A model generated the notes under the pieces. It was given only the letters and a program-made list of their open reading frames with translations. It did not search any database and was not told the origin of the DNA. This document shows, piece after piece, positions 119 through 58,619 of a stretch of 64,000 nt of DNA (its first letter is position 1; each line of letters starts with the position of its first letter). The translations under genes were made by a program, and so were the position numbers. Origin of the DNA: Saturnia japonica (lineage: Eukaryota; Arthropoda; Insecta; Lepidoptera; Saturniidae); the NCBI GenBank assembly GCA_033032175.1, contig CM065323.1, positions 8,742,001 through 8,806,000 on the forward strand, read 5' to 3'.

Positions 119-2560
119 ACCAAAAAGCTGAGTTAAATTGATTTCGTCACTTTAACTCAGCACCTTTCAAAATATAGAATAAAAGTGCTATAGCACAGTG
201 CTGTAAACGTTAATTAGACTTGTTTATAGCATTATTTAGTGGAAAATGCTAAATAGTCGAGGTAACCACTATTATACGGCTATTTAGAGATTTGGAAACG
301 TTAACTCATCTTTTATTCAACTATAAGCTGAGTAAATTGTTTCTTATTCGACTATTTTGCTGGTTGGGTACTGACTAAGGGTTTGCATATTGGAATCTTT
401 TCTTATACACATAATACTGACACAGTGACTCAAATAAATTCTCTGTCACACTTTAAAAGTCCGTTAATATTCAAAAATAATTCAAAACAACTTTCTCAGT
501 TCGTGATGGTTGTAATAAAAATAAAATTCCGTTGCTACCTCGGCCGGAACGAAACCGTGGACCATGACGCTCCCCGTGGAATCAGACACCGTGGCCTATG
601 GGAGAATGTTGTTGAGTGACATCGTTCCAAGCATTCGGTTACTTTTTACCCTGACGGCACTGCACCCGGATTGTAGATATAGTGCAGTCTAAAAATACAC
701 ACTGTATGCCAAGAGATTAGGATCTGTCCACAATCGAGGACATCATACCGTCGCGTCTTGCTTGAGTTCTCTCTACGGTTCATTTGAACCATCTGTAGGT
801 ATGAGCAGTTGAATCTAAAAACGTTTAAGTTTCAGTTTCTATCATAAATTGATCTCACTTCAAGTATTTCATTTTTTAATTTCATAGCTTTTATTACAAC
901 CCTACACCATAAACCAAGATGATTGAGCAGATACTTAAAATGTGAATGAAAACGGTTTAGTTATGGTTGTAATTAAAAAACGATACTTCAATATATTTAA
1001 TTTGTTCTACTATTTTTAGGATTTCGTGCCTCACTCAACGGGAGAAAGGTTATGCTTATAGGATCACTTTATTGTCCGTCTGTTTTTCTCAGGAGTGCGT
1101 GGAGGTATCAAGTTTAAATTAATATCAAATACTCAGATTTGCAATCCCTTGGAGCTATGAGAAAATCAAATTTCTAAGTCAACGCAATCAAAAGATACAA
1201 CTATTTATGCCATATATTTTAATACTCGCAAAGGGAATAAAAAATTATAAGGTACTTCCAGTTCAGCTAGAATCATGAAATTGGGTAAGAAGCAATGTCT
1301 TATAATTATAACACAAGTATAAGCTAAAAATCCGAAAATGAAATACGTTTGTAATTAGAAACTTATTTGCAGTTGGTAAACTGACCGCGGCATATATCGA
1401 TGTATGGAGGCAACAGTTTTCCAACGGCAAAGTTAAGTTTGTCCCTCAATATAGTTTATATTTTCGTTAGAATTGTTCGGTGCTTTCTTCAGTAATGTTA
1501 CCTAATTATTTTTGTTAATGTGGCTGTACAATTACGGAACCCTCGGTGCGCGAGTTCGGCTTACTTTTAGCCGGTTTTTCTTAAATATAACGCAACGATA
1601 CATTTATCAGCACGAATCTTGACAGAGAGAAAGAAACAGTGCTGCCATAATACTAAATGATTATTTTTAATATTTACATTCATAAACATTTTGTCTATTA
1701 TCTTCAGTATGCAGTATTATAAAAATCCATTATAAGTTAAATAAAGAGTTTTGGCGGGGTCTCAAACTGTGAGTTGTAAATATAGATGTCATTGGAAATA
1801 ATAACATGCACCATGAATTTTGAGATGCTAAAAAAATTTACTATAAATTCTAGCAAGAGAGCCATTATCTTGTTAGAATATTGAAAATCATCACAGGACC
1901 AGGACACTTATATTCACTAGATAATGGTAGTAATGGACTTCATTAAACAAAACGAGCTGTTAAGAAGAAGAACAAGTTAAATAAAGTGTTATGTTTTTTT
2001 TTGTTGTTAGAAAAGCCGTCAAACATCTTAATCTTGTTTATTTTTTAGTCTTTACTAATAAAAATATACAAAATTGTATGCATATCTTATGCAGAACGAG
2101 CAAACCAGCGCAACGTTCAAAAAGTCGTTAACTTCTCTCAAGTGACAGTAAATAAATCTATTGCTCGTTGGCATAACGCATGTCGCGCGTAAATCAATCA
2201 ATGTCAAGTAATGTTAGACGAGCAAGGACGATATTATAGGCAATTAAAATAATGTCAGTAAGGAATTATTGTTTAAAGAATAGATACCAACTAATATTAA
2301 ATAGTTATATATATATCCTAAATATTCCCAGAAATTGTGAAGATACTATTACAACTAACCATGTCATTGTTATTATTATTACATAGTGGGAAATTTAAAT
2401 AATGAATTTTAAACTACATGAAAAATAGTTCTAATAAAATAAAAATAAAATAAATAAATTATTCTAATAAAGAACTAAAGAGTGCCATCCATAGTTTACC
2501 ATGGTTGGTATCCTACCTACGATCCTTATACATATTTTACAAATTTCTCCTTGCTCCCAC
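119..2560. other. AT-rich DNA without a recognised gene
   Basis: No frame here looks coding and no splice pair is convincing. Two patches stand out. Bases 540-690 are GC-rich and open for part of their length, reading like an old retroelement piece. Bases 1021-1200 contain TCCGTCTGTTTTTCTC, a phrase of the kind seen at the 3' ends of insect non-LTR elements. Neither can be assigned to a family from this window. Confidence 0.6.
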
Positions 2561-2630
2561 TTGGCTTAGCGTGTTACCATCTTAGGCCACATCGGCTCTT
2601 AACCTCAAATTGAAGATAAAAAAATAATAG
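2561..2630 (+). repeat. SINE family B tail fragment
   Basis: The segment TTGGCTTAGCGTGTTACCAT followed by CTTAGGCCACATCGGC matches the 3' third of family B (for example 28080-28150). It ends in an A-rich stretch. Only about 70 bases remain. Confidence 0.75.
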
Positions 2631-3522
2631 ATAAATAAAGTAGGCATTTTAGATAATTTTAAATAAACTTATTTATGTAAAATATAAGGAAATATTTTAA
2701 GTTCCTAATATAGAGTTTTTGTGTATCTCATTGTATAATATAACAGGATGCCAAATTTCCTCCATTCAGATGTCCACAACGTGCCCAAGTGTTTTACGGC
2801 ATTTAAGGGCAATGAATTAAAATTTCACCAAAACGGTCGTGCACAGCCTTCCGCCTTGGACTTTGCTGTATGTACGTTGTAGGAGTGTTACCTGTCTTTA
2901 AAATAAAAACTGAACAGAGAGAAACATTAAATAAAATAATTATTATAAATATTAAAATTACCGCAATATTATGCACGACAATTCAATATAACGAATACAC
3001 ACTTCTTTCTAATCTTATCTCTAATAGGGCTTGTGTCAGATTGGATCGCGTCTTCAAATAGTTGACAAAAAATCCGTCATAATGCCTCACTTTGTCAGCT
3101 GACCGCATCCTATTCCAAGATTAGTTACCTACTGTATATCTTTATTATATTGAACCGCTACAATTACCCGATCAGATCAGATCTTGTAGTCACCAAAGGC
3201 GTAGTGAAGTAATTTTCCCTGGTACATTTTCATTTTATTTCAAAAATTTCATCCCTGACGATCTTTATCTCTAAATTTACAAGTATCTACTCTTATTTGT
3301 TTTATGCTTTGAAATCTATCTTATGTGAAATATAAAAACTTGCGTGCGTCTGTTACTGATCATAAAATTTCTGAATGTACTGAACGGCTTGACCGATTGA
3401 TCACATATATTTGTTTTATCGGGACAATGATTCACAGATAAGTTGAGGTCAATTTATTTCTAATGGAAAAGTGAAGGAAACGTCTAAGGGACTAGTTAGT
3501 TACAATATATAAATATATATAT
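2631..3522. other. AT-rich DNA without a recognised gene
   Basis: No coding signal is visible. An open frame at 2870-3061 has no codon structure or family resemblance. A short AT dinucleotide run (about 3510-3530) leads into the next repeat. Confidence 0.6.
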
Positions 3523-3883
3523 ATATATATTAATACGTGAAGCAAAAGCTTTCTACCCCTTTTTAAGCACATTGCGTGCAAGGAAGACTGAGATTTGGCA
3601 TGGTTAAAGTTTATATGGAGAAGGAGTGCAGAAAGCTTAAATTTATTTATAATCTCTGTTACTAATATATTAAATTAAATAAATTAATACTGCCAATGCT
3701 AAACCGACCATTGCCATTGAACTTAAACCCCCAAAACATTGACATTGTCACTCAACGAAAAGTGACAGCAAGTGATGTAGATAATACTCATTGTTTAGGT
3801 TCATGAATACTCCAAATGTCAAACAGAAAATAGTCTATGATCAAAAAGTCGCAGGTCGAATTTCGACCTTAGGGCGATCGCTT
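3523..3883 (+). repeat. Interspersed repeat family E, copy 1
   Basis: This is a full-length match, clearly above 80% by eye, to the copy at 56388-56744. Both begin TATTAATACGTGAAGCAAAA and end in CGACCTTAGGGCGATCGCT. They share the internal block CACTCAACGAAAAGTGACAG. No terminal inverted repeat and no poly-A were found, so the class is open; it may be a non-LTR element end. The matching ends suggest a defined unit of about 360 bp. Confidence 0.8.
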
Positions 3884-4480
3884 TATACTATTAATAAATT
3901 CATTAATATCGTCTTATGTAACAATTTTATTGACATGTAATTAAATGATTCCCCGTTCAAAGCGCTGTAATAGGTCATTATGTGATTTTCTGTTACCTAT
4001 ATGGGTCTTATGTTACAGTAAATACAGTAATCACTAACCATGATGACAAAACAATAAGTTGGCAACCGTAACTGTACGACACTGGAATTTGTACTCATCC
4101 CTGCTACGAATAATAACGTGAACCACATTGCGAACGAGTTTTTTTTTTCGAACACTGAAATGTTGCTGTGCTGACCCAATTTCTCTACAGTTGAAAAAAG
4201 AAATTTAAAATGTCGTGTTTGTTTGAGGAAAATATACATATATTTTTCCTTCCTTATGTAACAAGGTTACGCTTATATCTCTCTCTGTTGACTAAAGAGT
4301 CTGAAAAAACATTAAACTAAAAAATAAACTTATGCATTCGTTACATTGTTTTTATTTGCACATAGGAACACTTTTATTTGGTGATATGAGAGTTAAGACA
4401 TTTTTACTTAAAATAAAACGATTTATGGAAGCGATTTAGTTAAATTCCATATCTGGTAAAATGCTGTACCAATAGTAACT
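3884..4480. other. AT-rich DNA without a recognised gene
   Basis: Nothing recognisable was found. The minus-strand open frame at 3997-4239 shows no domain or codon signal. Confidence 0.6.
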
Positions 4481-4750
4481 GCCTCATTATCCTAGTGGTC
4501 CCAAGCGCGACTGCTATGCTTGAGGTCCTGGGTTCGATTCCCAGGTCGAGCAAAGTGTTATTGGGTTTTTCCTATGTAATTCTCAGTAGCAGCTCGAAGT
4601 TTGGCTTTGTGCCCGATTAATGGCAATAGGCTCGCCCCCTATTAACATGGGACCTAAAAACATACTCGGCGAACTGTGGGTGTACATTAGTAGGTATACC
4701 TCTGCCTAACCCTTCGGGGAATACAGGCGTGATGGTATGTTATGTATGTA
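4481..4750 (+). repeat. SINE family M, near full length
   Basis: This is a tRNA-derived SINE. The head has an A-box-like CCTAGTGGTC and a strong B box, GGTTCGATTCC at 4531-4541, inside a T-arm-like CCTGGGTTCGATTCCCAGG. The body includes GGCAATAGGCTCGCCCCCTA. The tail has CCCTTCGGGGAATACAGGCG followed by GTATGT repeats. RNA polymerase III transcription is known for the class and inferred here. It resembles SINEs common in Lepidoptera, but the family name cannot be confirmed. Other pieces are at 6615, 38334 and 48397. Confidence 0.88.
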
Positions 4751-6614
4751 AAACTTCTTGGCAACTAAAAATAGTTAATCGTATTTTTTAATCTGTCATC
4801 TAGTTGAGGCTGACTGACAATAAATTGATTTTCACTGGTAATTGTCCCGTTAGAAGGTAATTCCATCCACTGAATATTGTTTAGCGACTCACATGAGCGA
4901 ATTGTGAGGCCAAGTTAAAGAGCTTAGCGTTCAAACATTTCTGACCTTAACGGGAACACACGCATGACGGTATTCAAGCATACGCGAGACACATTGTGAA
5001 GTAAATTAATTTAACAAATTTTCTAAAACAATTATGAGCATTAAAATTTTTACTGAACTTTATTTAGCATGATGAAACAAATCTGGATTTTACTGCCCCA
5101 GGACGGGTATCTTTTTCACCTCATAATATATTACATTTCATTGGTTAAGATTTATTTATTTATTTTATTTAGATATACGCGATGAGCTACAGTTAACAAA
5201 ATAACACACATTGCATATAAAGAAATAACATAAAAAGGCCTTTTAAAAATACGCAAATTTAAAGTATGTAACATCATTATATAAATTTGGATGGTAATTA
5301 GCTAAAAAAAAATCTGGCTACAGTTTCCTTAAGTAGGACGTTGTAATGATGGTAATGATAAGTTAATTATAAAGTTAATCCATCTTCCGGGTCCTAAATT
5401 GGATTGATGTGTATTTAAATTTAGTATGTAGTAATATATATTTTATATTTAACAAAAGTCACAAACCAGTCACAGTCTAGCAAAGTCTTTATTAAGTATC
5501 TCTATTTCGTAAATAATTTATTTTTAATACCATGTTTCCAAGACAGGTAGTTTTACTTTAAATCATCAATATTCAATTTACAAATAAAATAAAATTCTAG
5601 GATTATACGTTTGAATTTTTACTTTTTCACCTAAGGAACTTTTCTCTCATCTTAATCCTGAGATATATTTAGTCAGAATTATTAATGATAGTTCAATGAA
5701 TACATAATATTTATCTTTACCATGATGTTCATATTTTGCAAGTCTACAAATTTTTTTTAATATTCGAAGGCCACAACTTCCTCGTTCCTTGTGGCCAGTA
5801 CTTTCATGGTGAAAGCTAGGTAATAACCATAGTTCAATGGACCTTGTTGCCCTAATAACTGTCGGTTTCCTTGTTTGAAAGCTTATCGGATAAAACAATG
5901 TCGAGTCGCATGCTAGAGAAAATACCTGAAGACGTGTGTATCGACACCCAATATGTATAATATCGTAACTCATTTAGCCATGGTTTTATGAAGAGTCCTT
6001 TAGTATTTTTATCAACTTCATATTTTTTTGGAATCAGACTACAAATTAAATTGGATGATACTTTTTAAAGCTCTTTCGACCCATTTTTTAAAATGTCCAA
6101 TTGAATTAACCATCGATGACATTATAATACTATAGATAAAATATGTTTTTATGTACAACGATTATTTTAGTAAATTACAAATCTAGTAATTTTCATCTAT
6201 TTAACTATTTTTCATTTTTTTATCTATTTTCATTTTCCATCATTTTCGTATTATTATCATATCATTTTATTTTTCCATAAAAATTGTCGAAAAACACGCG
6301 AGAAATCTGTTTACAAAATCATATTTTGGCTTGACTTGTATGTTACGAAGTTGCTTTTATCGATTTCGACAATTATTGACAAAAAGTATAAAATATACAG
6401 TTTTGTATTGTCTTTTGAGACAGATCAATATTTTTAGGGAGAATTACAAACATAAAATATTAATGTTTATTATGTTGATCGATTGCTTAATTAATTAATT
6501 ATATTAAATAATTAGATTAATCGGTAGTAACTTGCTCATTCGAACCATTGTTAGACTATGACATGACGATGACTGTCTATCCATTGATAGACTGAATAAA
6601 ATAATCGATACTAG
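4751..6614. other. AT-rich DNA without a recognised gene
   Basis: No supported feature. The 108-codon minus-strand open frame at 5647-5973 has no recognisable domain and is probably chance. Runs of T-rich sequence occupy 6190-6300. Confidence 0.6.
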
Positions 6615-7160: not shown

Positions 7161-8294
7161 AAGTTTCTTCGCATTTTTATATGAAAATTCAAGATATTTT
7201 TTCAAAGTTTATTTACATTTATTTACAGTATACATGTGACGTTTTGTTTGATGACTTTCTGCCATTTTGTAGGTAGAGAGAGTGACATGATCCCGTTGCT
7301 GTAGAAACTTTGGGACTTCTGATAAAAAAAACGCGACAAATAGTTTTGGCAGTCCTCTCTTGATGCTAACCTTACAGAACCTAAAGAATTCTGAAGAGAC
7401 CGAAACAGGTTTAAAATCTGAAGGTGCAAGGTCAGGGCTATATGGTGGATGCACTAACACCTCCCAGCCAAACTCTTTTAAATTTTGCTGAGTGGCTAAA
7501 GATGTGTGTGGTCTAGCGTTATCGTGATGAAAGACTACACTCTTCCTATTGATCAATTCCGGCCGCTTTCTCTCGACTGCTTCCTTTAATCTCATCAGTT
7601 GTTGGAAGCAGAGATCCGAATCGATGGTTTTGCCGGGCGGTAAAAGCTCATAATGAACAATGCCCTTCCAGTCCCACCATACACACAACATCACCTTATT
7701 TCGAGGTAGCCTAGGTTTAGCCACAGCCTGTGAAGCCTGGCCGATCTTAGACCACGGCCTTTTTCGTTCTTGTCGTACGTGATCCACTTTTCATCGCCAG
7801 TTATCAATCCCTTCAAAAACGGCTCGTTTTCATTATGTCTCAATAATTAATCGCAAATGTGTACACGATTCATTAGGTTTCTTGCAGTGAGCTTGTGTGG
7901 CACTCAAATATCGAGGGCGACCAGAGCGAGGTGCATTTTTAACATCAAAATTTTCGGACTGAAAACGTTTGAACCAACTTTGTGCTACTCTTACTGACAC
8001 TGTATTAGGTCCATAAACATCACAAATGTTTTTCGCTGCGTGAGTTGCATTTTTGCCTTTTTTGTAATAATATTTTAGAATGTATCGAATTTCTTAATTA
8101 GATTCATCATTTAAAAAAAAAGAAAAACAAATGAAAAATAGCGGGAAACAACTGTTTTTCTTATTTATTTTTTATTTGTAATGTAACCTTTTTAATGTTA
8201 TCAAAATCAGCCAGATACAAATAGTACAGCCAAAGAAATTTTATAACAAGTTTATACCTACGTTATGCGAAAACACTTTTTCCCCCCGACCTAA
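7161..8294 (-). mobile_element. Mariner transposon, damaged copy
   Basis: A Tc1/mariner-class element read on the minus strand. Its right end, seen from outside, is TTAGGTCGGGGGGAAAAAGT (8275-8294), followed by a TA at 8295-8296 that fits the class target site. The left end keeps only the inner part of the repeat (AAGTTTCTTCGCATTTTTAT on the plus strand at 7161). The outer bases with the GGTCGGG motif are lost or mutated, so the copy is probably not mobilisable in cis. Remnants of an N-terminal helix-turn-helix region are readable on the minus strand between about 8100 and 7900. Confidence 0.92.
7209..8100 (-). pseudogene. Mariner transposase pseudogene
   Basis: This was a DDE/D transposase that cuts and pastes its own element at TA sites. 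The longest open piece starts at 7787. It holds VVFHHDNARPHTS, carrying a catalytic Asp, and HPPYSPDLAPSD, carrying the last Asp, with DD34D-type spacing as in mariners. Right after APSD the frame shifts: the continuation (FRSLQNSLGSVRLASREDCQ and onward) lies in another minus-strand frame, 7223-7429. Upstream of 7787 the N-terminal part is broken by stops but still reads VRVAQSWFKRFQSENFDV. The wording is closest to the irritans/cecropia mariners; the subfamily is a judgement. At least one frameshift and several stops make it non-functional. Confidence 0.93.
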
Positions 8295-28168: not shown

Positions 28169-28539
28169 AACAAAAGAAATAATAATACTGTAAGTTATGT
28201 AACCTTAATTAATAAATTAAAAACTATACTTTCGTGATTATGTCAAAATCGCCTACAAATAATGTCTTTAAGATGAACGCCTTAAGTTTTTAAGCGTTTC
28301 CGTTAATTGCAAATATCACACCTTATATTAATGTATGATGCTGCTGAAGATATGAAGACATCCGAGGCCTAGAATCACAACTGGCTTTCATTTCTATCTT
28401 CCAAAACAAATATTTAAATCCTTAACGATACAATACTTTAACATCTTAAAAATAGGTGTAGAACGATCTACAAATATGTTACAATTTCTGTACGATGTTT
28501 TCCTTTGCTAAACTCTTAGTTTACGGTAGAAACCATCTC
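28169..28539. other. No recognised feature
   Basis: AT-rich sequence between a SINE and a LINE fragment. If the LINE fragment extends upstream beyond recognition it would lie here, but no reverse-transcriptase motif can be read. Confidence 0.4.
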
Positions 28540-28750
28540 GGTACGAATAAAAAAGTTCTATGTGTCATATCTTTGCCGTACTGAAGCTGTGGAACTGACG
28601 CGATGTCGGCCAGTGTGTTCGCTCCGTTCTACAACATGAGGTCATTCACATAAAATGATGAAGAGACAGTTGAGCAGGTCGATCCCTCGGTGGTCACCAA
28701 TGTTAATGGAGTGCACATTGGCGTCACATTGCAGTGTTACGTAAAAAAAA
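28540..28750 (+). pseudogene. LINE reverse-transcriptase C-terminal remnant
   Basis: The block ATCTTTGCCGTACTGAAGCT followed by GTGGAACTGACGCG is homologous to 58366-58619, where the frame reads TVKLWNCLPASVFPPSYNIE. That LWN-LP-SVFP pattern is the conserved C-terminal end of many Jockey/CR1-like LINE ORF2 proteins. Here the frame is interrupted. The segment ends in GTAAAAAAAAA, as expected for a 3' end. Confidence 0.75.
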
Positions 28751-37193: not shown

Positions 37194-37403
37194 CTAGGCA
37201 CATTGACGATACTTCCCTGATGGTAAGCACAGCACAATCCAAACACAACGGTGACCACCGAGAGATCTAAGTGCATCGGCGGCGGCCACTGTCATGCCGG
37301 CCCGCTTAATTATCTCTTCATTACGCTTAAAGGACCAGATGTCGTACGAAGGAAGGAACATACTGGGCGGGAGAAGGTCCCACAGCTTCACGGTACCTAC
37401 GAC
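37194..37403 (-). pseudogene. LINE reverse-transcriptase C-terminus, left half of split copy
   Basis: Read on the minus strand the frame gives GTVKLWDLLPPSMFLPSYDI followed by WSFKRNEEIIKR. This is the conserved C-terminal tail of Jockey/CR1-like ORF2 proteins, homologous to 58366-58619. It then runs to the 3' motif CTTACCATCAGGG near 37223. Its upstream half is at 39160-39212. The P-like element at 37404-39159 is inserted between them with an 8-bp duplication, so the LINE was there first. The 129-codon open frame 37194-37583 joins this LINE with the transposon's end and is not one gene. Confidence 0.88.
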
Positions 37404-37652
37404 CTCAGAATACAGAAAAAACCAGAAGCCGCGTTCAGAATATTTACATACGCTGCACTGTGTCCAAAAACAATACGTACGTCCCGCACCTGCCCCACTT
37501 CCCATACGCATAATGTTGCTAGCTCGGAAGCGGTTTCCCACTTTTCGGGATAGTCTTATAACACAAAAAAAAAAAAAATTCATTAAAAAATATTTATTTA
37601 TTTACATGGAAGACTATAAATAGAATACGGCTTAAATAACGTAAGTTAAGAT

Positions 37653-37658
37653 TTTATT
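37653..37658 (-). terminator. Polyadenylation signal AATAAA of the THAP gene
   Basis: AATAAA on the minus strand begins only five bases after the stop codon of the THAP gene (37663-37665). The very short spacing suggests a compact transposon-style transcription unit. Confidence 0.6.
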
Positions 37659-37662
37659 AAGT

Positions 37663-39002
37663 TTAATTGTTTAATATACTTTTTGAAGATTCGTACTTCT
37701 TGGCAAGTCTGTTGTATTTTTGTTGTAATGTGTTTATTCGTCGAACATGTTGTTCACAAAATATTTGTTTTCGTCGTAATTGAGATTTAAGTTTGACCTT
37801 TCTCGGTGTATCAAACACAGATTCCAAATCAGAAATATTGACATCACCGATCTCTGAGTTCGATCGCGCAGGAGATTGTGGTTGTGTAACCTGAAATGAA
37901 AAACCTTAAGTTGTATCATGTAATAGATTAACAAAAACTTTAATTAAATACAGAATATTTCTGCCGTACAAGGCATGACATTTCAGTCCTCACGGATGGA
38001 AACGCATTAGTAATAGCACTTTGTGCCTGAGCTTGCAAATGTCCATGGGCCTTACTTAGTTTATTTTACATTTATTACTGTTACTACTAGTGTTTATTTA
38101 CTACATTAGTTTACTTGTAACTAAGTATATCAATTAAGTGCTTTGTTTGCCTTTCAATATTATAAAAAAAATTAAACATTATTATCATAGGTGGGTACGC
38201 ACATTGTCCGATGTCGAAGGTTTAGACGTTTCTATGTGTAACTCGGAAAATTCTGGTGTCAAGACCAAACACTGAAATAGAACGTTAGTATTAGATTATT
38301 TATATATTTAATTTACCGAAGTTTCATTAGCCCGGAATCTGAAATTTGCGCCCGGTTTAGGCTCGCCCCTTATCACGATGAGGGACGGATAAGCTCGACG
38401 AAAAGTGGGCATACTTGTTATACCTTTGCATACTCCTTCGGGGATTACAGGCGTGAGCATATATATATATATGGACCAAAATCTTACTTCAAAATACATG
38501 ACAAACATTTTCACCAGGAGGGATACAATATAAATATAGTAATTATTATGACTATATCTTCCTTAGTTGGATTAGCTGCTTTCTTCAGTCTTTTCAAACC
38601 ACCTTTTGTATCATAAAAATATTGCGCTTCAAAGTGAATTGAGCAAAGTACGCTCCGGCTTGATGGTTTCCAAAACTCATCTAGCCGTGCTCTTTGTATG
38701 ACTTTCATCCAGTCCGATTTTCTATTTTCATCAGCAGGGAAACTAAAATTACAAAGGTTCTATATACACAAAAATAATAAGCATTCTACACGAGTATTAA
38801 AAAAATAAATGGGTAAAATTTTCGATGAAAATAAAATGGCAACACTTAAAAAATGGACGCGTAATTTTCTAAATCTAAAATAAATTAAACAATTAAATAA
38901 ATATACTTTAGAATGCGCTACTTACAGATGAAATGTGACCCCATCCTGTTTTTTTATAATCCCTGCAGCATTTTTACATGTAGGAACAACAAAAGACGGC
39001 AT
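37663..39002 (-). CDS. THAP-domain coiled-coil protein, four exons, transposon-borne
   Basis: Exons (minus strand): 38926-39002, 38553-38742, 38203-38271 and 37663-37890, about 187 codons. Residues 1-86 form a THAP zinc-finger DNA-binding domain: MPSFVVPTCKN, TFH-FP at 23-28, DW at 36-37, CSIHF at 59-63 and A-NPT at 82-85. Its intron after TFH has a GTAAGT donor and TTTTAG acceptor. Residues 143-185 are a basic coiled coil (LRRKQIFCEQHVRRINTLQQ), then a stop. Odd points: residue 4 is Phe where the first zinc Cys is expected (TTT for TGT). The donor of exon 2 (ATA|GTCATA) is poor, and without splicing a stop follows at 38511-38513. Exons 3 and 4 keep phase 0. The protein would bind element DNA in the nucleus. 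Its shape matches P-element KP-type repressors more than a transposase. It may be decaying. Confidence 0.82.
38334..38470 (+). repeat. SINE family M tail inside a THAP-gene intron
   Basis: It carries CTGAAATTTGCGCCCGGTTT, TAGGCTCGCCCC, the GCGAAAAGTGGG-like block (CGACGAAAAGTGGGCATAC) and CCTTCGGGGATTACAGGCGT, then an AT run. It lies in the intron between the second and third coding exons (38272-38552), antisense to the gene. It therefore postdates or accompanied this copy of the transposon. Confidence 0.82.
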
Positions 39003-39078
39003 TTTAAAATTAAAATTGGCACTTGTACAATACGTCACGACGTGCTACTTACAAAGGAGTGACTAATCGCAACAACGT

Positions 39079-39105
39079 CAAACCACTCTATTTAAGAGTG
39101 GTTTT
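39079..39105. promoter_or_regulatory. Hairpin palindrome upstream of the THAP gene
   Basis: AAACCACTCT and its complement AGAGTGGTTT are separated by ATTTA at 39080-39104. It is about 55 bases inside the right terminal repeat and about 80 bases upstream of the ATG. Subterminal repeats of this sort often bind transposase or repressor; THAP binding here is an inference. TTAAATA within it is weakly TATA-like. Confidence 0.4.
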
Positions 39106-39159
39106 TGTATCTTCAGTTTTATGTGCGTTCGCGGTTTCTGGTTTTTTCTGTATTCTGAG

Positions 39160-39212
39160 CCTACGACAAAGATAAGTCATAGAGAACTTTTTAGTTCGTT
39201 CCGAGATGGAAA
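39160..39212 (-). pseudogene. LINE remnant, right half of split copy
   Basis: After the duplicate CCTACGAC, the complement reads CTCGGAACGAACTAAAAAGT then TCTCTATGACTTATCTTTG. This matches the 58366 copy (CTCGATACGAACAAAAAAGT, TCTCTTGTCATATCTTTG) and continues directly into 37403 once the transposon is removed. It is short but decisive for the insertion model. Confidence 0.85.
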
Positions 39213-41149
39213 TGAATAGTAAAGATTAGTTATAGTTACTATAAACTATATAACTTAATTAATATTCTTTTAAAGTTACCAACGATTCGAAGTTAGGTGA
39301 AACATCTCATGGCATGACTGCAACTAGAACTAGCACAGGGCGCTTATATTTAGGCAATCGTGGTAAGAATATTGTTGTGCTACCCAATAAATAGGAATCG
39401 TTACTGTTTATTATTTAGCTGAATTATCAGTTAAATATTTATCGCCAAGAACTATTGGTATGTTCCAGAAACCGCCATTAGTTATTCCTTTTTTAGGTTT
39501 ATAAAATGTTAACCATAAAAACACAACAGTTTTGTCGGCTCATTTTATCTATCGCAATAAAATGTGGTGTGTCCAGTAATACCATCAGATATGTAAATTA
39601 GTCCACGAACCGCCCATCTGCCTCGCCACCTGGCTGAGGATCGCTGAATTAATTACGAAATTGTGGCACGCGCCGTGCCATACCAATTTAACATGACATT
39701 TCATCGTGTCATTATGTAACATAAACTGTTGACCATTATATTAAATATGGTATCGTCTGTAAATATTTCAATTTTTTTTTTCACTGAATTGTACTAAAAA
39801 TATAAATAAACTAAGCCAACCAAATATGTATGATATAATTTGGTATTGTCTAGCTTTTGCCTGTCTTATCTTCGATAAAAACATACAACTACTACGAAAC
39901 TTAGGTAGATCGATTATGGACTGTGAACTGTTTTGAATTGTTTATCGATTGATTTATTTTTATAGTCACACATGACATATTTTAACTATATAATAATATA
40001 AATTGAAGATTTTACAATGTTTTTGACTGGCTTACAATCCAAATTTATGTATCCACATAAAGTTCAGTTGTAGTTATTTGACAATACATAAAGTTAGTGT
40101 AATATACTAGAATATAAAATTACAACGTACGTAATATTAAAATAAAGACAAGTAAGTTTTAAACAAATAGAGATAAGAAAAGATTAGAACCATTCGAAAT
40201 ATAGGTAGTACCAAAGGAGGGTGAAGAGGATTGGATGGACGGAAGAGAAAACGAACAAAGAGTTATTAATAAAAACATGGTAAAAGATATTATTAGAGAT
40301 GGATTTTATTAGAGATCATTAAAAATGGGAGGGGAAGTTGGGGGACATTTGATTCGACACGACGACCTATTGTAAACGAGAATACAGAAATTGAAAGAAA
40401 TAGTGGAATACCATAAAGGACATACATTCAGCAAGAGATTGCTCCACCGACAATTACGTGTAATTAGTCTGAAAACCTCAGACTCGGTATTACGAACACT
40501 ACAAAGGACTAAGTAAATATACATACGCATTTAAAAATTCAAGATTTACGAAGTCAGATGTCCGGGTTTTAACGATATACATGTGATAGATAATATACAA
40601 CTAGAGGTCAAATTAGACTGGATATTATAAAACAACGTTGTCTTCTAAGTGCCATGACATTGCATCGTAGTGCCCTCGCCGCTAAAGGTTATCAGCGATG
40701 TAAAGATACGATCTAAAGATATATGTATCATTACTTGTGCGGTACCCTCGAAATTATTTAAATAACTTTATAATTATTATTATAGTATTTTCAAAGTTCA
40801 TAATTAGTTTATACATTTCATTTGTATTAATGTTAATATTGATATCTCCCTTTTCAATTGGCGTAACATCTAAATCAATAATTTTAGAAAAATTTTCAAC
40901 AATGAGTTAAAATATTATTAAAACTTGATAAAATAATTAATATTCATCAAGATCACGATTCACATTATATAGAATAAGGTGCTAAAGTGGAAACTTGAAT
41001 TATCGTTATTAACTGACTTGAAATACGAAGAAAAAACAGCAAAAAATTAATCGACAGTAAGAAGTGAACCTTTGTTCGTTTACTCCTATTGTAAACAAGT
41101 AGCGAGGTCCAACGGTTTGACCTGAGTCAAATTTATTCGACCAAAACTC
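39213..41149. other. No gene recognised
   Basis: A perfect 7-bp-arm hairpin, GGCACGCGCCGTGCC, lies at 39665-39679 in a less AT-rich stretch (39600-39700). Open frame 40309-40530 has no domain. Otherwise the DNA is AT-rich and featureless. Confidence 0.5.
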
Positions 41150-58328: not shown

Positions 58329-58365
58329 TAAAGTTCAGTAACATTAGCTTTACGTTAATCTCTAT

Positions 58366-58619
58366 CTCGATACGAACAAAAAAGTTCTCTTGTCATATCT
58401 TTGCCGTACTGTGAAGCTGTGGAACTGTCTTCCAGCCAGTGTGTTCCCTCCTTCTTACAACATTGAGTCCTTCAAACATAACGTGAAGAAACATTTGAGC
58501 AGGCTGTCATAACAGTGAATTGGCAGTGAATTTTAGATTTTTCGGTGGTAGCCGATATTGTTGGATTTCACTATGATTACCATCAGACACAGAGCTGTTA
58601 TTTTTCTACGAATAAAAAA
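58366..58619 (+). pseudogene. LINE reverse-transcriptase C-terminal remnant, clearest copy
   Basis: The frame from about 58410 reads TVKLWNCLPASVFPPSYNIE then SFKHNVKKHLSRL. This is the conserved last segment of Jockey/CR1-like ORF2 proteins. It continues to a 3' region with TTTTCGGTGGTAGCCGATAT, GATTACCATCAGACACAGAG and a terminal A run (58613-58620). It serves here as the template to recognise the copies at 28540 and 37194/39160. Confidence 0.88.

Follow-up and report, generated by a model that had tools for sequence, protein, structure and literature searches.

The P-type element and its short gene

A 1756-bp non-autonomous member of the P superfamily lies on the minus strand of the window, the whole 64-kb stretch of Saturnia japonica DNA analyzed here (Table 1). 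Its arms are complementary at 29 of 30 positions, and a perfect 8-bp target-site duplication, CCTACGAC, flanks it on both sides. The initial annotation had described these ends and this duplication and had stated that the halves of an interrupted LINE rejoin when the element is removed, and all three observations are borne out. In the empty-site comparison, the LINE-like repeat is uninterrupted once the element is taken out, and two other LINE-like copies in the window (58339-58586, and within 28481-28700 on the minus strand, BLAST match 28533-28580) cross the insertion site without an element, the joined flanks carrying four extra bases relative to the former copy and six relative to the latter. 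We take the interrupted repeat to be a LINE from the look of its 3' end; a Pfam search of one 64-aa piece of it, the single piece tried, found no LINE domain. Elsewhere in the window, a fragment of a mariner-type transposase (PF01359, E = 1e-22) is present at 7209-7790 on the minus strand, and Rfam and tRNA scans of the 64 kb were empty.

Table 1. Coordinates of the element, its flanks and its short gene in the window
Feature	Position	Strand	Basis
Non-autonomous P-superfamily element, parent 1-1516 + 3699-3954	37404-39159	-	Alignment to parent
5' terminal inverted repeat (gene orientation)	39130-39159	-	Arm pairing and genome terminus count
3' terminal inverted repeat (gene orientation)	37404-37433	+	Arm pairing and genome terminus count
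Target-site duplication, left copy CCTACGAC	37396-37403		Sequence
Target-site duplication, right copy CCTACGAC	39160-39167		Sequence
Interrupted LINE-like repeat, left part	37217-37403	-	Repeat comparison
Interrupted LINE-like repeat, right part	39160-39232	-	Repeat comparison
Exon 1 (ATG, THAP N terminus)	38926-39002	-	Reading frame and parent comparison
Codon 4, TTT (Phe) versus parent TGT (Cys), first zinc ligand lost	38991-38993	-	Parent comparison; 33 exact genome copies
Exon 2 (remainder of THAP), parental boundaries	38562-38742	-	Parent comparison
Exon-2 donor dinucleotide, GA here, GT in autonomous parent	38560-38561	-	Parent comparison
Repeat in intron 2, also in autonomous parent; 70% copy at 4627-4748	38358-38473		Repeat comparison
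Exon 3 (linker)	38203-38271	-	Reading frame and parent comparison
Exon 4, coiled coil to stop at deletion junction	37663-37890	-	Reading frame and parent comparison
Internal-deletion junction (parent 1516/3699 + 2 extra bases); HTH, RNase H, GTP-binding and C-terminal domains gone	37659-37662	-	Parent alignment; 97 genome places
AATAAA polyadenylation-type signal, from parent 3' end	37597-37602	-	Sequence and parent comparison

The element contains a four-exon minus-strand reading in which a coiled coil comes after a THAP domain, with no stop in any exon. The THAP domain is recognized by Pfam (PF05485, E = 5e-14) and by a match to the THAP2 structure (E = 1.2e-10), and the Pfam search of the reading found no catalytic domain, in agreement with what had first been reported. 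The initial annotation presented this reading as a gene for about 187 aa. Its four exons and its THAP/coiled-coil order stand, but the end it gave to exon 2, ATA/GTCATA, is wrong; we rejected this site as the donor because the intact parent (described below) splices at AAG/GTAGAT, and parental splicing gives a product of 184 aa, not 187. In the window copy this parental GT reads GA, and the first zinc-binding cysteine of the THAP finger is missing (MPSF versus MPSC in the parent). The parent and some members of the family retain Cys4 and the exon-2 donor; the window copy has lost both. GTCATA, a poor donor 9 nt downstream of the lost one, would restore the 187-aa reading, while read-through past the lost donor is predicted to yield a THAP-only product of about 102 aa (hand count). 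The gene had also been credited with introns, a stop and a polyadenylation site of its own; its introns and polyadenylation region come from the parent, and its stop codon sits at the deletion junction. A self-standing THAP gene that evolved separately is rejected, since the short gene is collinear with the parent transposase gene. As read from this comparison, what looked like a stand-alone gene is the surviving 5' portion of the parent transposase gene, damaged in the window copy.

The parent transposon and its family in the genome

The source assembly searched comprises 580 Mb in 402 contigs. Its sister copies, for which a search with the terminal repeat had been proposed, are numerous: the 24-bp terminus has 592 genome matches (291 + 301, with up to 3 mismatches), compared with 1 for the reversed control. 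A search with the transposase gave at least 56 matches (52 of 1,167 first-look candidates were scored). The two best, at 78% to the query, are located at C2:23324566-23326980 and C27:1267202-1269616 and contain near-complete open frames of 809 aa. Both lie within 3,954-bp elements (L049 and L050) that have the same 24-bp ends as the window element and perfect but different 8-bp duplications; these two copies occupy different genome sites and differ by 1 base in 3,954. The parent gene consists of four exons with GT-AG introns and encodes a 913-aa product, so that the full-length THAP9/P-type relative that had been sought is present within the same genome. The domains of the L049 protein (PF05485, PF12017, PF21787, PF21788, PF21789 and PF22824) cover THAP, HTH, RNase H, GTP-binding and THAP9 C-terminal regions; its coiled coil was read from the sequence by eye, without a predictor. 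The parent transposase matches the Drosophila P transposase structure chain (6p5a) at E = 1e-20, and its aDEM, fDG..N and DhlEllFG motifs align with Drosophila residues in the 6p5a alignment, which we take to be the catalytic ones. The two parents are thus apparently intact autonomous P-type transposons. Ends of about 30 bp, 8-bp duplications and a full P/THAP9 transposase in a parent with the same ends together support the P-superfamily membership originally assigned to the element.

Perfect 8-bp duplications flank 51 of the 54 family elements scored. These 54 elements, used for the duplications and the tree, and the 49 non-autonomous elements used for the frame comparison below come from terminus matches on contigs C1-C9 and from transposase-search matches; the terminus-derived sample consists of 40 + 10 regions among the matches listed (the first 100 of 592). 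Other P-type families are also present (L055, L056, L057, L059 and L061), with long open frames at 38-47% identity to the query; the ends of the window family were not found in the fetched stretches.

Predicted stand-alone proteins of the same shape occur in Spodoptera exigua (P0001, 189 aa, 72% across its full length), Parnassius apollo (178 aa, 60% over 95%) and O. furnacalis (P0010). In a fragment (P0005), the same coiled coil continues into the HTH domain of P transposases, and longer composite queries reach transposases such as P0009 (HTH, RNase H, GTP-binding) and P0018 (878 aa), with 251 proteins at E <= 0.001 in the composite-query search. The lepidopteran origin suggested by the initial annotation is supported by the best named relatives (Spodoptera exigua, Parnassius, Ostrinia, Loxostege, Colias and Chilo), many matches without a species label being equal or better. 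No relative emerged from short-pattern scans of viral and prokaryote collections, a method sensitive to close relatives only. Our literature search on lepidopteran P elements and deletion breakpoints found no title or abstract on this family among the papers listed, which is weak evidence of absence because most subscription journals lie outside its coverage, and the available part of one noctuid survey (PMC10298559) makes no mention of it.

Internal deletions and the state of the short frame

The window element aligns to parent positions 1-1516 (96%) and 3696-3954 (92%), the second block starting at 3696/3699 with 2 extra bases at the junction. It therefore corresponds to the parent minus about 2.2 kb, collinear over its whole length, with both ends kept and the catalytic core gone. 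Its junction (1516/3699, class 1) is found at 97 genome places (control, 0), and a second junction (1524/3747, class 2) at 124 (control, 1), 13 of which fall in one local run. The 13 matches of this run (C1:8989645-9078129) are on one strand, several of them 3.12-3.13 kb apart, and look like a tandem array of a unit that bears a P derivative. At L047, two adjacent class-2 elements (2185-3901 and 4804-6521) are bounded on every side by an identical 8-bp duplication, which suggests that an element and its flank were duplicated rather than that two insertions occurred. Two further copies differ in structure: L028 (C7:8399347-8402429), of class 1 and 3,083 bp long, contains a nested insertion of foreign DNA (about 1.3 kb) close to parent 741-746, and L068 (223-2528) is a deletion derivative with an intact-looking 370-aa frame fusing THAP, the coil and part of the HTH domain to the transposase C terminus.

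Eight other junctions remove the core (1651/3714, 1486/3562, 1551/3500, 1546/3645, 1719/3348, 1721/3685, 1525/3047 and 1537/2372). Seven of the ten distinct core deletions have their left end at parent 1486-1551 (codons ~175-197, just behind the coiled coil), an interval of 66 bp that widens to 72 bp with the other alignment of the uncertain left end of 1537/2372 (L054), which places it at 1557. Seven of ten in 66 bp was reached in 0 of 200,000 uniform draws over the element, likewise over most of exon 4, and in a fraction of 4.5e-5 of draws over the first 1 kb of exon 4; these figures apply to ten junctions that are distinct but of unproven independence, L013 and L035 being class-1 elements re-deleted on their right side. 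Four of the ten (1719/3348, 1721/3685, 1525/3047 and 1537/2372) come from the transposase search, which favors copies with coding remains; in the terminus-based sample, five of the seven largest deletions (counting 70/1386 of L037) have their left end in the interval. Three large deletions lie elsewhere (65/1935, 70/1386 and 1224/1552) and remove parts of the THAP domain or the coil, and several smaller ones are located in the intron region. By AT content, the breakpoint interval ranks in the top 4.2% of 66-bp windows across exon 4, so that a repair hotspot would account for the clustering.

The short frame is mostly broken in class 1. Among the 30 sampled copies (window copy included), 15 have Phe4, a start found in 33 exact genome copies, and 12 of the 15 combine it with the GA donor; the frame is broken in 23 of the 30, one or more splice dinucleotides are missing in 15, and 28 fail the intactness test. 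The THAP and coil frame is intact through codon 178 in two of the 30 (L009 and L030). Intact frames are found in four of ten class-2 copies (L038, with two THAP substitutions, L040, and L047a/b, which are one duplicated locus), in two of four class-3 copies and in one of five copies of other classes. These counts omit single-ended loci (L001-L008, L039, L080 and L082), elements without the 5' part (L037/L053 and L051), and L050, L052, L054, L064, L069 and L087. Three sets of copies (L012/L022/L029, L011/L032/L034 and L010/L027) each have a common frameshift despite different 8-bp duplications, which indicates that copies moved after the frame was broken and that spread needs no frame.

The ratio of nonsynonymous to synonymous changes, relative to expectation, is 0.56 for unique changes in the Phe4 subfamily (30 nonsynonymous, 17 synonymous), 1.28 in the other class-1 copies and 0.62 in class 2 (0.41, 1.17 and 0.55, respectively, for all changes), in a crude test that takes the majority consensus as the ancestor and uses small numbers from non-independent copies. 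Unique nonsense changes number 3, 11 and 2 in the same three groups. There is no clear purifying selection on the short frame; with ratios below 1 in the Phe4 subfamily and class 2, weak constraint may have acted in part of its history. In the tree, 13 of the 15 Phe4 copies, including the window copy, form one group (local support 0.85), and L013 and L035 fall with Cys4 copies. These two join a 5' half of the Phe4/GA kind to an exon 4 of the other type, have in common a further right-side deletion and look like mosaics. This points to recombination or template switching between copies, and simple tree-like decay is therefore only approximate.

Relation to known P derivatives and interpretation

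Internally deleted, repressor-encoding P elements and 8-bp duplications are described in a review (PMC7776569). KP of Drosophila melanogaster is missing P positions 809-2561, and its product of 207 aa includes 199 transposase residues (PMC4938643). Like KP as presented in these two sources, the window element derives from a P element by internal deletion, retains both ends and the THAP/leucine-zipper coding part, and belongs to a small multi-copy non-autonomous type. It is collinear with an autonomous P element, with the core deleted and both ends present; unlike KP, the window copy and its relatives lack the first zinc ligand and a splice donor (Cys4>Phe, GT>GA), so that the window copy has no open THAP plus dimerization frame with working splice sites. 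The parallel with KP drawn by the initial annotation thus holds for the THAP/coiled-coil architecture with the catalytic part removed but not for a working frame. The Saturnia family also differs in its exon layout, its lepidopteran host and its at least two abundant junction classes. In D. melanogaster experimental population R2 (PMC12393704), non-autonomous internal deletions likewise displace full-length P elements, some of them keeping the DNA-binding part. P-deletion breakpoints in D. melanogaster are described as mostly random (PMC7750958), whereas the left breakpoints of the Saturnia family cluster. Anopheles gambiae (PMC1562414) similarly has full-length P masters (27-31 bp ends, perfect 8-bp duplications, THAP transposases) beside many non-autonomous relatives in one genome, at 5-310 copies per family; the P-MITEs among these have 114-198 bp in common with a master and unrelated centers, whereas the window element aligns to its parent over its whole length, and a P-MITE identity is rejected on this ground. 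Zebrafish likewise combines a full-length THAP9 gene flanked by inverted repeats with copies that bear internal deletions and 8-bp duplications (PMC7776569), but the repeats there are 13 bp with long spacers, compared with 30 bp here.

The window element is very probably a KP-type internal-deletion derivative of the 3,954-bp autonomous P transposon apparently intact in the same genome, with a decayed leftover 5' gene and most likely the role of a passive substrate competing for transposase. About 2.2 kb would have been lost from the parent between the end of the coiled-coil coding region and the 3' untranslated end, most likely via interrupted gap repair following excision. The shortened element, its ends kept, would have been mobilized in trans by the parent transposase, as suggested by the ends common to parent and derivatives and by the 8-bp duplications. 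It would then have multiplied to about 100 copies, one of which inserted into the LINE-like repeat here. Because the window copy has lost both Cys4 and the exon-2 donor, we infer that it would act chiefly by titrating transposase rather than through an encoded repressor.

Target duplications of 8 bp are not unique to P elements, and this would fit a chance assembly or a member of another superfamily with such duplications (hAT, Merlin); these readings can hardly be true, as the same ends flank a full P/THAP9-type transposase in the parent, and hAT or any other superfamily was rejected accordingly. The initial annotation saw in the element a repressor-type P derivative, which as a working locus would produce a 187-aa THAP-coil protein that binds the ends and blocks transposition. 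Its KP-like architecture, open frames in all four exons and a similar number of transposase codons (about 182-185, versus 199 of 207 aa in KP; PMC4938643) agree with this. However, the zinc ligand and the splice donor are lost, copies with the same damage are found at many sites, and nearly all sampled class-1 copies fail the intactness test; a working repressor gene is not supported, and we regard such a locus as highly improbable. Judged from the sequence, a repressor role for the window copy is unlikely, and some copies of other deletion classes, with intact KP-like frames, could encode a repressor.

This raises a broader alternative, that short THAP-coil frames have been collectively favored as repressors, that several deletion classes end behind the coiled coil for this reason, and that the window copy is a decayed member. 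The clustered left ends, the intact frames in classes 2 and 3 and the same-shape proteins predicted in S. exigua, P. apollo and O. furnacalis are consistent with this reading, which we nevertheless consider rather doubtful. Class 1 is mostly broken, the four intact class-2 copies include one duplicated locus (L047a/b) and one copy with two THAP substitutions (L038), and three large deletions take out THAP or coil parts instead; moreover, a repair hotspot in the AT-rich interval would suffice to explain the clustering, and some classes may be re-deletions, as L013 and L035 are of class 1. A stronger version, in which this moth P transposon repeatedly yields KP-like elements via deletions that start behind the coiled coil and the intact class-2 and class-3 frames are active repressors holding the two parents in check, is unlikely; if true, it would represent a convergent KP system outside flies.

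The element is a new lepidopteran member of the KP-type P derivatives, a kind that is itself known. A single genome harbors two near-identical, apparently intact P transposons, and junctions of collinear KP-like derivatives are matched about 220 times in it (97 + 124, counting tandem copies). Such a genome is well suited to the question of what makes deletion derivatives succeed: replication advantage, titration or encoded repressors. That class 1 spread with a mostly broken frame suggests that its success does not depend on an encoded protein. Most deserving of attention in this system are the clustered left breakpoints, as opposed to the mostly random ones described in Drosophila, and the intact class-2 frames.
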